DNA of 27,450 nt from Eremomyces bilateralis CBS 781.70 (Eukaryota; Ascomycota; Dothideomycetes; Eremomycetales; Eremomycetaceae), in NCBI RefSeq assembly GCF_010015585.1, contig NW_022985079.1, forward strand, positions 392,196 to 419,645, given 5' to 3'. Of the stretch, positions 763 through 7,237 are shown in pieces; position 1 is the stretch's first letter; the number at the start of each line of letters is the position of its first letter. Made by a program: the position numbers and the translations under genes. The notes below the pieces were generated by a model that was given only the letters and a program-made list of their open reading frames with translations, had not been told where the DNA came from and made no database searches.

Positions 763-893
763 TTACCTGTGCCCTTGCTTAGGCAGGGGGAGCCGGGGAG
801 ATTGGGTGATGTGAGAAGAGGCATACCTGCTTGAGAGTTAAAAAAAAAACCAGATAATCCCTACCCCAATTCGGCCCTGCCATCAGTACAGGG

Positions 894-1384
894 TAGGGCT
901 GGACACGAATATTCGACTATTCGTATTCGTACGAATATTCGTAGTCGAATACGAATAAAATTTAGAATTTCCGCTTACTAATATTCGTACGAATAATATT
1001 CGCATTATTCGTAATTATTCGTAATTATTCGTCTATCTCTGAAGCTATTTCCATGTATCTCGCATCGGAGAGATGGTCGACAGAGAGCTTTAAGCTGGGG
1101 TCACTTGGCTTGCTGAATCGTCAGGAGTGATCAATTCGACGCTATTGATATGCTTTGTATCTCTTAGAGCTCAAATCCTCCAGATCGTGTTCGGGTAAAC
1201 AAAAGTCGCGACTGTTGGGCATTCATTCATTGGCTCGGCTTTTGCCGAATAAGTCTTGGCATTATTTACGAATATTCGCGAATAATACGAATAAAACGTC
1301 TCAAAACTTAGTCGAATACGAATAATCGTTCAAGAGGAAAAGTCGAATACGAATAGCCAAAATCCTTATTCGTGTCCAGCCCTA
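894..1384. mobile_element. hAT-like MITE, 491 bp copy
   Basis: Ends are perfect 18 bp terminal inverted repeats (TAGGGCTGGACACGAATA), flanked by a perfect 8 bp target duplication GTACAGGG at 886-893 and 1385-1392. An 8 bp duplication with TAGGG ends is the hallmark of hAT superfamily DNA transposons. No transposase is encoded: the interior is AT-rich and built at both ends from many direct and inverted ATTCG/CGAAT motifs, typical subterminal repeats. It is therefore a non-autonomous element that needs a transposase from elsewhere. It lies upstream of the C2H2 gene at the left edge, in its 5' region or first exon. Confidence 0.93.
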
Positions 1385-1392
1385 GTACAGGG

Positions 1393-1890
1393 CCGCTCTT
1401 GCTGGATGACGTGTCGCGAGGATGCCATTGGAGAATCTCGCTGGTGCCCTGAACAAGTAGGGCAATGGTTCGCTTGGTGGAATGATATGCCAGCACGAAT
1501 AGTGATGGGGAAGGGAACCGTAGAATAAATAGCCAAGTCGTTTGACCGTGAAACGAGGGGGAGCAACTGCATTTATGTCAAATTACTCGAGAGAAATCTG
1601 TCCAGTTCCGGACAGTACACGCCCACCCTACTAATACCTTTTACTGTCCTGCTCCATCCACACACTACAACCTGCCATTTGCGGCCCTTTGCCAACAAAG
1701 ATATCTTGCAACAAAGGTCACCTTCTGCCATGCAGACGAAGTCAACAAAACTCCCAGCGACCAGACTACTATATTCGTAGCACACGACTATACAAGTACG
1801 CCGGCGGTATCCCTCATCGGGGATATTCTCGCCTTCTGCATAGGTCTGCCCTTAGACCGAAACTAGAAACTTGGTATCCCGCGTCCAGAT
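1393..1890. other. Intergenic, no supported gene
   Basis: About 500 bp between the MITE and the ankyrin gene. Short ORFs on both strands lack recognisable domains. On the minus strand, an open frame at about 1385-1496 would continue into the MITE-flanking sequence if the element and one target duplication were absent, so it may be 5' exon or leader of the C2H2 gene. An in-frame TAG at 1864 precedes the ankyrin gene start. Confidence 0.5.
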
Positions 1891-3348
1891 ATGAGCCCTC
1901 GGCAAAACGATACCTCTGGCGCTCGCTACCTGAAATGTAGCCTCACCGGACTGCTCAAGTGTGACCAATGCTTAAAAACCTTTCCTACGAAGGGGAAATT
2001 CAGGTTCGAAAATATCGCCATTATCTCGAGAGGCACTCGCTAATTGCTTCCCAGCCGCCATTATAATAAACATACAAAACCCCATCGGTGCAACGACTGT
2101 GGGAGAGGATTTGGACTCAATGGTGATCTTAAGCGGCATGCCAAAATACATCAACTCGTCAACTTTCCCTTCCACTGCAATGTTTCCGGATGCCGGTTCA
2201 AAGGGGCTACGAGAAAGGATAATCTGCGAAGACACATTCGTGCCCGCCATAGACTTAATGAGTTCCACGGGGAAAAGATACAGCAAGAGGACATCGAACC
2301 ACTTTGCAACCAGGCACAATTGGAGGTTAAGGAACTGATCGGCGACTCTACTGTGCCCGTAGCCGTGCAATCCGGGAACGATATAGTACTGCGCTCGCTT
2401 ATCGATCTCGGGTTCGACCTTACGACAAGATTCGATCACGGCAGAACGGCACTTCACATTGCCGCAGTCAAAGGCAGTGATGTTGCCGTACGAATACTCC
2501 TTAATGCCCGGGCCAACACCGAAGCTAGAGACGATCTAGACAGAACCGCACTGCATGAAGCAGCATATCAAGGACATCATAACGTTGTGGATCTACTTCT
2601 GCAGGCAGGAGCAGGGATTCATCATAGGGATCACAGAGAGGACACCGCGCTCCATCTCTCTGCTGCCAGCGGTCATAGTCTTGTTACAAGGTCTCTTCTG
2701 CAGAAGGGAGCTAAACCAGATGCACAGTCACGGAGAGGAGAAACGGCACTATACCGAGCGATCCAGAATGGACACGAAGATGTTTCCAATCTACTGCTAG
2801 ATCATGGGGCATCCCCCACAATTGTGTCAAATGCGTCGCGGGCGGCACTGTACTTTGCGTGCAAGGCCGGAAGCGAGAAATTACTTGAACGGCTGCTTCG
2901 AGAAACGCCGGATGGACCAAGCATGGCTCGCAAACAGAGGTTCCTCGTTCGTGCAGTCAGGCATGGCAATGAAGATGCGACAAGGGTGCTTCTCAAAGTA
3001 GGGGCGAATGTTAATTTGAAAGGACATCAAACCGGCTGTACTCCGCTCGAGTGGGCGGCGATGAGAGGAAATGAATCCATGATGCGACTGCTTCTTGAAA
3101 ATGGACCAACCGTCAAAGGCCTCACCGGCGCACTTCAATGGGCCGTAGTACGGGGTAATGAGAAGGTGATACGTCCACTTCTCGAAAGCGGGGCAGACGT
3201 GAACGAGGCGGACAAATGGGGCAGGACAGCGCTTCATACCGCTTCTAATCGCGGCCATACAGACATCATCCGTTTACTTCTTACGAGCGGGGCTGACGCA
3301 AACCGAGCTGACAACGGGGGGCCAAACACCGCTCTACCAAGCTTCTAA
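1891..3348 (+). CDS. Three C2H2 zinc fingers plus ankyrin-repeat protein, end altered by a G-run
   Basis: Exons are 1891-2003 and 2055-3348; the 51 bp intron has branch GCTAAT and acceptor CCAG. ATG 1891 is the first after an in-frame TAG at 1864. The intron splits the first finger: joining restores CDQCLKTFPTKGKFSRHYNKH. Finger two is CNDCGRGF...HAKIH, finger three CNVSGC...HIRARH (residues about 23-105). About ten ankyrin repeats follow (TALHIAA, TALHEAA, TPLEWAA, TALHTAS cores) to residue 468. The last repeat is cut by a TAA at 3346. One base fewer in the six-G run at 3316-3321 would continue a textbook repeat to TAA 3407. Ankyrin stacks bind proteins and the fingers suggest DNA binding, so I infer a regulator; partner and target are unknown. 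Confidence 0.85.
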
Positions 3349-3602
3349 AGACGGCTATACAGACATTGTCAGTTTACTCCTCGAGAGCGAGGCAGATGTT
3401 GTGCGATAATGGAGATTTCGCCAAGTCAGGTGATTTGTATAGGGATACAATGGGAAAGCACCGTGAGATACAAAGAAGAAGGCGTATAGATTTATCTTGA
3501 TCCTAATGAGTGTATCAACTAGAGGGATATGTTGAAATTAGGTGAAATTACTTGCTTGATTATTCTAAGATGTAGAAGACGCTGGAAAGATTTGCGCCGA
3601 GG

Positions 3603-4934
3603 AATTCAACCAATCTCCGCATCGATGGACGAAACCGGGCCGAGTAGCAGGAAAAACTCCTGCTTATTATCGACGAGATCAGTATGCTGGGTGCGCGGAC
3701 GCTGTATATAATGAACGAGCAACTGTACAGACTTCGAGGGTATACGGACGACTTTGGCGGCATCCCGATTATTATCTTCTGCGGGGATTTCCGGCAGTTC
3801 CGTCCGGTCCAAGAGCGGTCGATCCTTCTCCCTAGCCATGCTATTTCGTAGACCGACGATACATCCTTCCGAGCAGAGCAGAGGCACCAGCACGATAAAG
3901 CGCACGCGCTATAGAACAAGTTTACCATAGTCGTGATGCTCGACGAACAGGTCCGTGCGGCTGGAGACCCACGACTCCAGCAACTCCTTAGGCGGATCCG
4001 GCACGGCGTACAAGATCAGTCCGATATGGATTTTCTGAACGACACGTGCTACCAGGAAGGTCGACGCATCCCATGGGAGTCCGGCATAACGGTAATCACG
4101 CCGCTGAATCGGAACCGCTGGAATCTGAACCTCGAAGCTATGCTATCCTTCCAACGCCAAAGGCAAGGCGTACTTCGGATTTTCATGTCTGAGCATAAGT
4201 GGAAAGATGGCCAGCCTACGGAGGAGGAGGCCCTGATGCTGTTAAGTCAGGGGGACGACAGCGCCGTTCCCGTCCCAGCTATCTTCATGTTCGTCCCGGG
4301 GATGCCCATCGCCGTAAACCAAAACACCCACCAAGGCCTGAAGCTGGTCAATGGCGCCCGCTATACGGCATTAGACGTCGTCCTCGACCAGGCATTCCCC
4401 GGGCATCGCGTCAACGCCGATACCATACTCTACTTCGGGCCTCCGGCCGGGATCGTGCTGGCGACCGAGACGACGAGAGAGTGTAACTTCGTCGGCATGG
4501 CAGCCGGCACCATCCTCCTAACGCCCGTCAGCGTCAAAATTGACTGCCAGAGAAAGCGGCCGTAGCAGATGCACGACGTCAGCCGGCGAGGATTGCCGTG
4601 CGCAGCGGCGTTCGTATACACGGATTATAAGGTGCAAGGAAAGACGTTGGACCGAGTGGCGCTGGAACTTCGCGGCGCGAGGACGACGAACGTCGATGGC
4701 CAGGCCGTCCCCAGTCAATGCGATGCCTACGGCCTATACGTGCAACTGTCGCGCTGCCCATCGCTAGATGGGATTATGCTCCTGTCTCGAGCGCGGGAAA
4801 GAGACATTATCGGCAATCGAGTGCCCGATAACATAGTCGCCGCCGAGAATAGGCTAGAACGACTAAGCGAGGGGACGATTCGAGACGCAGAACGTTGGGA
4901 CTGGTCATCAGAGGAGGGACAGACGGTATATTAA
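3603..4934 (+). pseudogene. PIF1-family helicase remnant (Helitron type), C-terminal portion
   Basis: A single frame from about 3612 to the TAA at 4932 encodes the rear of a PIF1/RecD-like 5'-3' DNA helicase. It shows the Walker B motif LLIIDEISML (about 3657), motif III FCGDFRQFRPV (about 3773), then a conserved block (ITPLNRNRWNLN, VNQNTHQGLKLVNGARY) and the C-terminal YVQLSRC helicase motif (about 4738). The Walker A half is absent. Four TAG codons interrupt the frame (3645, 3849, 3912, 4563), each where I recall tryptophan in relatives, as expected of G-to-A change in TGG; at least five other TGG codons survive. Such helicases are carried by fungal Helitron rolling-circle transposons, but no Rep domain is visible here. 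Non-functional as it stands. Confidence 0.85.
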
Positions 4935-5441
4935 GGGGAAGCAAATGCGGCCTAGATATATTAAGTAAACCAGGCATTGGCTAGCGGAGCGCAAATAGAG
5001 CGAGGGACATTGAAAACCGACCCTTTGTAACATTGATCGCTTAACGATGGGGAGACCTCGCCTTCTGTTTTTCTCGCATCCCTCCTCTTTTTCTCGAGAC
5101 TTTATGATCGGAGTCAGTTTCGGCGATCAGAGCCAAGTCTCGACGGTCGGAGTTAGTCTTAACGACCGGACTTAGTCAGGCGCAGAGTCAGAATCCGGCG
5201 GTGTCTGCCGACGCGAAGTGGACGCTGTGGAGCGTGTTGTAGTTTCATAGTTCGTTCCAATCATATCATACGGGCTAAAGCGGGCGGCGACGGCGATGTC
5301 GACGAAGGGAACGAAGGAATGAATGGATTCCTACTCCCTCCAGCCAATCGCTCTAGTCGATGTGGGAAACTTGCTGACTGATATATACATGTCTGGGCAT
5401 GCCATTTGGATTGTCGACGAAGGTTGGGGTAGGAGGAGTAC
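4935..5441. other. Non-coding stretch downstream of the helicase remnant
   Basis: No ORF with a recognisable domain. From about 5100 to 5210 there are loosely repeated GGTCGGAGT/GGACTTAGTC-type motifs. It may be the 3' non-coding part of the Helitron-like element that carried the helicase. Confidence 0.4.
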
Positions 5442-5486
5442 AAATCACGTGAAACTCACGTGAATATCATGTGATTTAAGGTCTAG
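5442..5486 (+). mobile_element. Candidate Helitron 3' terminus: hairpin followed by CTAG|T
   Basis: An 11 bp imperfect inverted repeat (AAATCACGTGA at 5442-5452, TCATGTGATTT at 5467-5477, one mismatch) encloses a further TCACGTGA palindrome (5456-5463). Five bases later come CTAG (5483-5486) and a T. Helitrons end in a short hairpin just before CTRR and insert 5' of a T, so this fits, 550 bp downstream of and in the same orientation as the PIF1 remnant. The matching 5' TC end was not found, so the call is tentative. Confidence 0.4.
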
Positions 5487-5576
5487 TTAGAAGTTTGTTG
5501 TCTCCCCTCGTGCGACCAAAGACCTTACGGAACTTCGTTCCTCCAGGCATGCACGTATTCCAGACAACGTCACTAC

Positions 5577-5700
5577 TAGGGCTGGACACGAATATTCGAC
5601 TATTCGTATTCGTACGAATATTCGTAGTCGAATACGAATAATCGTTCAAGAGGAAAAGTCGAATACGAATAGCCAAAATCCTTATTCGTGTCCAGCCCTA
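5577..5700. mobile_element. hAT-like MITE, 124 bp deletion derivative of the 491 bp copy
   Basis: Same 18 bp terminal inverted repeats, with its own perfect 8 bp target duplication GTCACTAC at 5569-5576 and 5701-5708, so it transposed as a unit. Its left 65 bp equal 894-958 and its right 76 bp equal 1309-1384, overlapping by the 17 bp TAGTCGAATACGAATAA that occurs twice in the long copy. Length is exactly 491 minus 367. It lies at the edge of the RecQ-like helicase remnant. Confidence 0.93.
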
Positions 5701-5708
5701 GTCACTAC

Positions 5709-6300
5709 GTGTCTACGTCCTTGACACTAGGGTTTGACAGCAAATCATGAAACTCGTCGCTAACTGCTTGCTCAGGACTCATCAAGATATGGGTGTATAA
5801 TCCAGCTGCAATCCCCTTTAACAGGTTCGGATTCGTGCGCTTGGTCTCCGCTGTAACAAGGCAAGGCCTGACCTCTTCTGCTCCTCTCCAAGCTTGCTTA
5901 AAGGAATCAACTGGATAACAATTCTGCCAATAAAGATTGGGATAGCATGGAAGATAATGCTCTTCCCAAAACCAGTCTTAGCAGAGACAATAGTATCCCC
6001 ATGGCGAAAAACAATTCGTCGAAGAGCCCGAACCTGGTTGATACGTGGGAGCCGACCACCCAGGAGTCGCTGCAAACCATGGAAAGTAAGATCATGCTGG
6101 TATTTGATGTTCTTTCGTATTAGACATGTCTTGACTAGATCTTGCAGTACCGAGCATAACTCTTTCTCTGGTGTCGTTGCAATTATGGATATCCGTTCTT
6201 CAGTTGTTTTCTCGATAGGAAGTGGTTGTACAGAGGCTGGATTCTGGTATGGGGAGGTTTCACGCTGATGAGAGCGGCCTTGCCGGCGCTTCACTCGCAT
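5709..6300 (-). pseudogene. RecQ/DEAD-like helicase remnant (N-terminal ATPase part)
   Basis: The minus-strand ORF 5818-6300 (160 residues) shows a helicase nucleotide-binding start: INQVRALRRIVFRHGD (a motif 0-like Q-region), Walker A AKTGFGKS at residues 107-114, and a motif Ia-like IQLIPLSKLGEEQ at about 135-147. At about 5855 the conserved reading moves to another frame, where CLVTAETKRTNP and HILMSPEQAVSDEF continue to about 5725, so a small indel has broken the gene. The second MITE follows at once and the ATPase Walker B region is not recognisable beyond it. It resembles the superfamily 2 helicases that are often repeated and subtelomeric in Aspergillus-type genomes. Non-functional fragment; host origin assumed. 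Confidence 0.68.
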
Positions 6301-7237
6301 GGAGGCAGATCTGGAGATTGAGCTTTCACATATAACGACACGACAAGTAGTTTTAAAACACTAGTTATAGATTGAACAGTTAGCAAATTGATATTTAAAA
6401 GCCATAGGACGGTTTAACAAACCCTTATCTATATTTCATCAACTTTTGGAGCCCGCGCAACTTTCTCGTATGATGTTATTCGCCATCTCGTCATTTTCAC
6501 CAAATCTCACCATTCACGCGTCCATTCAGGTTTTGCAAGAGTTTCTCAGACGGTATCCAAGACAGTTGCAGTCAGCTGAGTGGCGTTCACGCTAAACATG
6601 GGGCTAATCTGGTTATGGTTTAGCTTAACCAGAGTCATGGCTTGGATACCGTCTGAGCCCAAGCTGAGATAAGCTGGAGCTGTATTTTGTCACGGAATAT
6701 CTGTGGTTCTTGGCATTTCAGCACGGTTTCATTCCGTATTCGATTCTATCCCTAAGTTTCTTTTCTTTTTGGGAAAAGGATCACTATTGTAAATCATAAT
6801 AGCTGCAGGAAGAGTCTGTTTTCGCAGGATTCCTGCTCTTCAATGTCAAGATCAACCTATCTGCGTTGTTTTGGCATCTAACGGTGTTTTCCCACTATAT
6901 CGCTGTACCAATGACCTGATTAAGCGAAGCCGCTATTTATCTCACATATTTCAAGCTCCAGATATGTCTTGGCAAAGTGTTCATACTTCGAGTTTTGATC
7001 AAGCTCCAGATATGAACGCTTTGCATGTCCCACCTGCGAACATATACAGTCCCAAGCCAATCAAGCGCCTGGGCTCTTTGGGTCCATTCTTAGACTGTAG
7101 ATCCGGCAAGCGCCTTGGGAGTGTTCGTGTTTGGTTGCGTCCAGGATCGTGGGACCAGGATCGTGGGAGAGGAGAGTATGTGTGCGAACAGGAGCATGGG
7201 GACAAGATCATGAGAACTGGATTGTGCGCACAGGGTC
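6301..7237. other. Repeat-bearing non-coding region
   Basis: No gene supported. It contains the 113 bp inverted-repeat element (6545-6657). From about 6950 to 7260 there are imperfect direct repeats: CAAGCTCCAGATATG twice, AAGCGCCT twice, CAGGATCGTGGGA-like twice, TGAGAACTGGAT twice. The 132-codon ORF at 6871-7269 is built from these repeats and has no domain. Confidence 0.5.
6545..6657. repeat. 113 bp element with perfect 17 bp terminal inverted repeats
   Basis: CTCAGACGGTATCCAAG at 6545-6561 and its exact reverse complement at 6641-6657, separated by 79 bp. Pairing stops exactly at both outer ends, as in a transposon terminus, and resumes weakly inside. No convincing target duplication is visible, so it may be an old miniature element or a hairpin-forming site. 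The superfamily is not assigned. Confidence 0.6.

Follow-up and report, generated by a model that had tools for sequence, protein, structure and literature searches.

Non-autonomous hAT elements of the Ac/Ds system of maize arise from internal deletion, the cut lying at short direct repeats. Abortive gap repair is the model named for Ac/Ds in a study on the MtPH families of Medicago, which are PIF/Harbinger-like and are described there as a series derived from core elements by internal deletion, their interiors being rearranged with the help of tandem repeats (PMC2213677). For Mar, a hAT (Buster) MITE family of Drosophila, internal deletion of a longer transposase-bearing copy followed by amplification was proposed (PMC3517528). 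The Bari-derived MITEs of Drosophila fall into short (<120 bp) and long classes; breakpoints were proposed among the terminal direct repeats that bind transposase, and the authors judged the rearrangement to be more complex than abortive gap repair (PMC4877112).

Here we analyse two related elements from Eremomyces bilateralis CBS 781.70, located in a stretch of 27,450 nucleotides of contig NW_022985079.1, hereafter the window. Their terminal inverted repeat (TIR) string, TAGGGCTGGACACG, had no match in the literature searched. The reading that we favour, with a probability of about 0.88, is that a hAT family shrank stepwise in this genome, and that the 124-bp copy derives from a 491- or 501-bp copy by a repeat-flanked deletion.

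Results

Two copies related by an exact deletion

The two copies occupy positions 894-1384 (491 bp) and 5577-5700 (124 bp) of the window. The features on which the analysis rests are as follows, TSD standing for the target duplication:

886..893, no strand: left TSD of the 491-bp copy, GTACAGGG, 8/8 against 1385-1392
894..1384, + strand: 491-bp MITE, a non-autonomous hAT element with 8 identical copies genome-wide
894..911, + strand: left 18-bp TIR of the 491-bp copy
942..958, + strand: 17-bp direct repeat TAGTCGAATACGAATAA, first copy
1309..1325, + strand: 17-bp direct repeat TAGTCGAATACGAATAA, second copy
1367..1384, - strand: right 18-bp TIR of the 491-bp copy
1385..1392, no strand: right TSD of the 491-bp copy
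5569..5576, no strand: left TSD of the 124-bp copy, GTCACTAC; a single ATCACTAC stands here in the two empty paralogous sites read
5577..5700, + strand: 124-bp copy, a deletion derivative, its junction found once in the readable genome
5625..5641, + strand: lone 17-bp unit kept at the deletion junction
5701..5708, no strand: right TSD of the 124-bp copy

The first-pass annotation had described 18 bp inverted ends common to both copies, a perfect 8 bp target duplication proper to each, and 17 bp repeats in the long copy of which a single unit lies at the junction of the short one. All of this proved exact. The inverted ends, TAGGGCTGGACACGAATA, match at 18/18 positions in each copy; the duplications GTACAGGG and GTCACTAC (5569-5576 against 5701-5708) match at 8/8; and the two units of TAGTCGAATACGAATAA are offset by 367 bp. 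Removing 367 bp from the 491-bp copy gives the 124-bp copy with 0 mismatches, and does so at 18 equivalent cut positions, which corresponds to the 17-bp repeat. The left 65 bp and the right 76 bp are identical between the two copies. The difference thus has the form of a deletion that ran from one short direct repeat to the other and left a single unit, the product being exact. As a control for chance, all internal deletions of at least 10 bp of the 491-bp copy were enumerated with cuts placed between the TIRs, 99,235 in all: 0.038% of them show a repeat of at least 17 bp at the cut, and 0.23% one of at least 9 bp.

Several other features were noted in the window. Two 106-nt direct repeats, 91% identical and spaced 174, lie in 1-280, and a 20-nt inverted repeat, 95% complementary with its arms 73 nt apart, at 6545-6564 and 6638-6657. 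An open frame at 2044-3348 (+) encodes ankyrin repeats, with Ank_2 scoring 192 bits; a C2H2 finger in it stays under the Pfam cut-off. Broken or short frames at 3597-4934 (+) and 5818-6300 (-) appear to resemble PIF1-type and RecQ-type helicases.

A family of long elements, MITEs and minis

The genome assembly (26.6 Mb, 62 contigs) was searched for other members. The TIR pattern had 73 exact matches against 0 for the reversed control, and 82 against 1 when up to 2 mismatches were allowed. At least 36 two-ended copies were found, one-ended and truncated copies being left aside: 13 long copies of 2571-2666 bp, 19 of a 491/501 class, a 578-bp copy, and three minis (124, 159 and 167 bp). This census is a lower bound, as 40 of 70 and 40 of 59 candidates were scored in the DNA searches. 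In the 491/501 class, 8 copies are identical at 491 bp, 5 are identical at 501 bp, and the other 6 are variants (491, 487, 473, 470, 451 and 423 bp). The genome-wide search for both size classes that had been called for yielded 8 identical copies for the 491-bp form and, in the readable genome, a single site for the 124-bp junction.

Perfect 8-bp TSDs flank 13/13 long copies, 16/19 copies of the 491/501 class and the 124-bp copy, each identical 491-bp or 501-bp copy having its own. No TSD was found at the 473-, 451- and 578-bp copies. At the 423-, 159- and 167-bp copies the TSD matches at 7/8 positions and is shifted 2 nt from one element end (C1:1841303, C16:533960 and C20:136767), as if cutting or joining had been imprecise.

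The 491/501-bp and 124-bp forms are short and TIR-flanked, and alignment with the long copies showed that, of the transposase region, they retain no more than a short piece. Several homogeneous copies at separate sites were found for the 491-bp (8) and 501-bp (5) classes, and one site for the 124-bp form, which is a derivative copy and no established MITE subfamily. Recent activity, which had been claimed from the near-perfect identity of the two window copies, is supported at the level of the family by the identical copies of these two classes, but 124 bp of identity date the deletion poorly.

Longer hAT elements with TAGGGCTGGACACG ends had been predicted to exist, and the 13 long copies are such elements. 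A profile search detected the hAT dimerisation domain (PF05699, Dimer_Tnp_hAT) in 10/13 of them. The readable C-terminal piece of one long copy scored 54.4 bits against a cut-off of 21.4, and its readable N-terminal piece matched no Pfam family. Given the 8-bp TSDs, the short TIRs and the dimerisation domain in the related long elements, the two window copies are assigned to one hAT family as non-autonomous members (MITEs).

The readable ends of 12 long copies show no mismatch to those of the thirteenth, used as reference, and yet 11 different lengths are represented, so that the difference must sit in the interiors. One long copy (C1:1004184-1006756) is nested in an older relic of the same family, which it splits near its end. 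PF05699 was detected at 47 places genome-wide and in 0/14 control genomes; other hAT dimerisation domains are thus abundant here, some in open frames of more than 700 aa.

Where the 124-bp copy was shortened

The first-pass annotation had further proposed that, once made, the short form transposed by itself. The 124-bp junction has 1 exact site in the readable genome; the other 90 junction matches listed are all 3 mismatches off, and consist of single left or right repeat units or near-palindromes of these. Neither a second copy nor a donor with this junction was found in the readable genome. Because the 124-bp copy is single, it is simpler to suppose that it shrank where it stands: the loss of 367 or 377 bp would most likely have occurred in a copy already inserted at 5577. 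Independent movement is unsupported, the junction being at one site and the TSD being equally expected from shrinkage after insertion.

Alternatively, the 124-bp form may have arisen elsewhere, either in place within a donor copy or while transposing, and have then jumped to 5577 at that length. In favour of this are its two 18-bp TIRs, its subterminal repeats and the perfect 8-bp TSD around it; transposase could have come from the ~2.6-kb elements, and the donor may have excised, or may sit in another strain or in unread sequence. Nevertheless, with a single copy, no donor with a matching junction in the readable genome, and the same TSD expected if a 491- or 501-bp copy had inserted and then shrunk, we consider this alternative unlikely, though it retains some weight beside shrinkage in place. 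The element may have been 491, 501 or 124 bp long on arrival at 5577.

That an element truly inserted there is indicated by empty sites, which had been proposed as a check. The flanks of the 124-bp copy, joined with one TSD, matched four other places, ungapped over 87 bp at 98%. In the two of these paralogues that were read, a single ATCACTAC is present where the 124-bp site has the duplicated GTCACTAC, and we concluded that the insertion at 5577 took place in a repeated sequence. For the 491-bp copy, a search of the genome returned no empty site and matched only the two halves of its own locus.

The repeated sequence around the 124-bp copy extends from about 5549 to at least 5767 of the window, with four other copies at 98%, and the left flank adjoining it (about 30 bp) occurs in three further places. 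A local hop, suggested by the 4.2 kb spacing of the two window copies, was also considered and dropped as uninformative: for 36 two-ended copies in 26.6 Mb, about 0.2 such pairs are expected by simple arithmetic, and closeness proves nothing.

Parent of the 124-bp copy

The 124-bp copy had been equated with the 491-bp copy minus 367 bp. The arithmetic is exact, but the statement is too narrow as regards the parent. A 501-bp copy minus 377 bp gives the identical 124 bp product, as does the 491-bp variant at C4:153278-153768 minus 367 bp, both exactly. Since the 491-bp class, the 501-bp class and the C4 variant all yield this product, the parent may equally have been a 501-bp copy, which fits as well as a 491-bp one.

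A parent outside these classes is far less plausible. The 17-bp units are also present in the ends of the ~2.6-kb elements, as seen in the alignments, and the 124-bp copy could in principle have been cut straight from one of these, independently of the 491/501-bp MITEs. From a ~2.6-kb element, however, it differs at 5 positions over the left 65 bp and at 4 over the right 59 bp, and at all 9 of these diagnostic positions it carries the MITE version, with no mismatch to the 491-bp copy. A direct origin would require an unseen ~2.6-kb variant with MITE-type ends, and we regard it as very improbable.

A stepwise series and its direction

What the 491-bp form retains of the long copies is ~150-170 bp on the left, ~80 bp from close to where the transposase begins, and the right end. 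Compared with a 2612-bp long copy, it is without ~1.95 kb (by subtraction) and 166 bp, the latter loss having a 5-bp match, TATTG, at the cut (by eye). In a diverged 578-bp copy (C5:195439-196016) the ~1.95-kb loss is present and the 166-bp loss absent; likewise, two fragments (C13:104390-104634 and C19:108640-108800, 161 bp read) have the large-deletion junction without the 166-bp loss. Having two mismatches in each TIR and no TSD that could be found, the 578-bp copy is a relic visible only as structure.

In the ~2.6-kb elements, the interior that the 124-bp copy lacks is present, its left part and its right part each as a contiguous stretch. As longer relatives hold this interior, the direction from long to short holds, and the repeat-mediated deletion put forward in the first-pass annotation is upheld by the exact product, the 17-bp repeat and these relatives. 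The order ~2.6 kb, intermediate, 491/501 bp, 124 bp would follow provided that the large-deletion junction arose once, as we assume. In this series, a ~2.6-kb element with a hAT transposase domain would first have lost ~1.95 kb; a further 166 bp would then have been lost, giving the 491/501-bp MITE class, which multiplied; and finally one 491- or 501-bp copy would have lost 367 or 377 bp between the 17-bp repeats of a subterminal CGAATA array, leaving the 124-bp copy. The reverse, an ancestral short form into which 367 bp inserted with duplication of a 17-bp target, might be thought of from the two copies alone, a repeat flanking extra DNA resembling a target duplication, but is contradicted by the longer relatives taken as outgroup and is hardly credible: the interior beside each repeat unit is common to, and contiguous with, the ~2.6-kb elements, these also have the 17-bp unit on both sides in the alignments, and the 578-bp relic retains much of that interior.

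Possible mechanisms of the last step

Folding of the 124-bp strand predicts an almost complete hairpin (-37.4 kcal/mol, against -11.8 for shuffled sequences, z -12.2), and the left 65 bp are hairpin-prone on their own (z -4.9). The loss could have come about by template slippage or strand switching in repair synthesis, that is during gap repair after excision. Slippage or strand switching in replication across the hairpin-prone array would be an alternative, and single-strand annealing between the 17-bp repeats another. Each of these leaves one repeat unit, and they are alike at the sequence level. The CGAATA array may, by analogy, bind transposase; subterminal repeats matter for Kat1, a hAT transposase (PMC4763223).

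Other collapsed copies

The two other minis were compared with model parents. The 159-bp copy, on C16, fits a 363-bp deletion with a 10-bp exact overlap in an 11-bp repeat of the 491-bp copy and 5 mismatches, when a 31-bp tandem duplication is added to the 491-bp copy to model the parent. For the 167-bp copy, on C20, the model parent is a 491-bp copy from which a 26-bp block on the left is missing; a 298-bp deletion then fits with 12 mismatches, the repeat at the cut being 9 bp. With an unmodified 491-bp copy as parent the fit is poor, with 41 mismatches and a 2-bp repeat. Both look like independent collapses at similar repeats, less certain than the 124-bp case in view of these alignments. 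As the deletions differ, shrinkage probably happened more than once. Short copies older and more diverged than the long ones genome-wide had been named beforehand as an observation that would speak against the deletion. The 167-bp mini is indeed the more diverged, with its 12 mismatches, but it is a different deletion and the 124-bp case stands. A further old mini form is possibly present at C5:397939, judging by eye.

A more general idea, which we put forward as speculation by analogy and think unlikely, is that the CGAATA array acts as a built-in shrinking device: repeats that bind transposase would double as deletion sites, and the MITEs would collapse repeatedly to end-keeping forms of ~125-165 bp (here 124, 159 and 167 bp). 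If true, the fact that each mini is seen once, against the multiplied 491/501-bp forms, could mean that there is a lower limit of size or content for amplification.

Discussion

Within a single genome, the long hAT elements stand beside an intermediate that has diverged, two classes of MITE that have amplified and a copy that collapsed recently, and the breakpoints are exact. Such a neat natural series lends itself to the question of which deletion derivatives can still amplify. The case is a clean example, in a new family, of a known route of MITE formation, and it brings no new principle.

As with the deletion derivatives of Ac/Ds, these are non-autonomous hAT elements with an internal deletion at short direct repeats; unlike them, the last step here uses a 17-bp repeat within a subterminal array, and any tie to excision is putative. 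The family is like MtPH in its internal-deletion derivatives, the superfamily and the host being different. It shares with the Bari MITEs short and long classes and, as proposed there, breakpoints among direct repeats; Bari belongs to Tc1/mariner and the present family to hAT. It resembles Mar, also a hAT MITE, for which derivation from a longer copy by internal deletion and then amplification was proposed. The full-length relatives of Mar are described as relics or non-autonomous, whereas the present family has 13 two-ended copies of ~2.6 kb whose readable ends are identical, and, unlike in Mar, the stepwise series can be followed within one genome. This legibility, together with the probable repeated collapses, is what distinguishes the present family.
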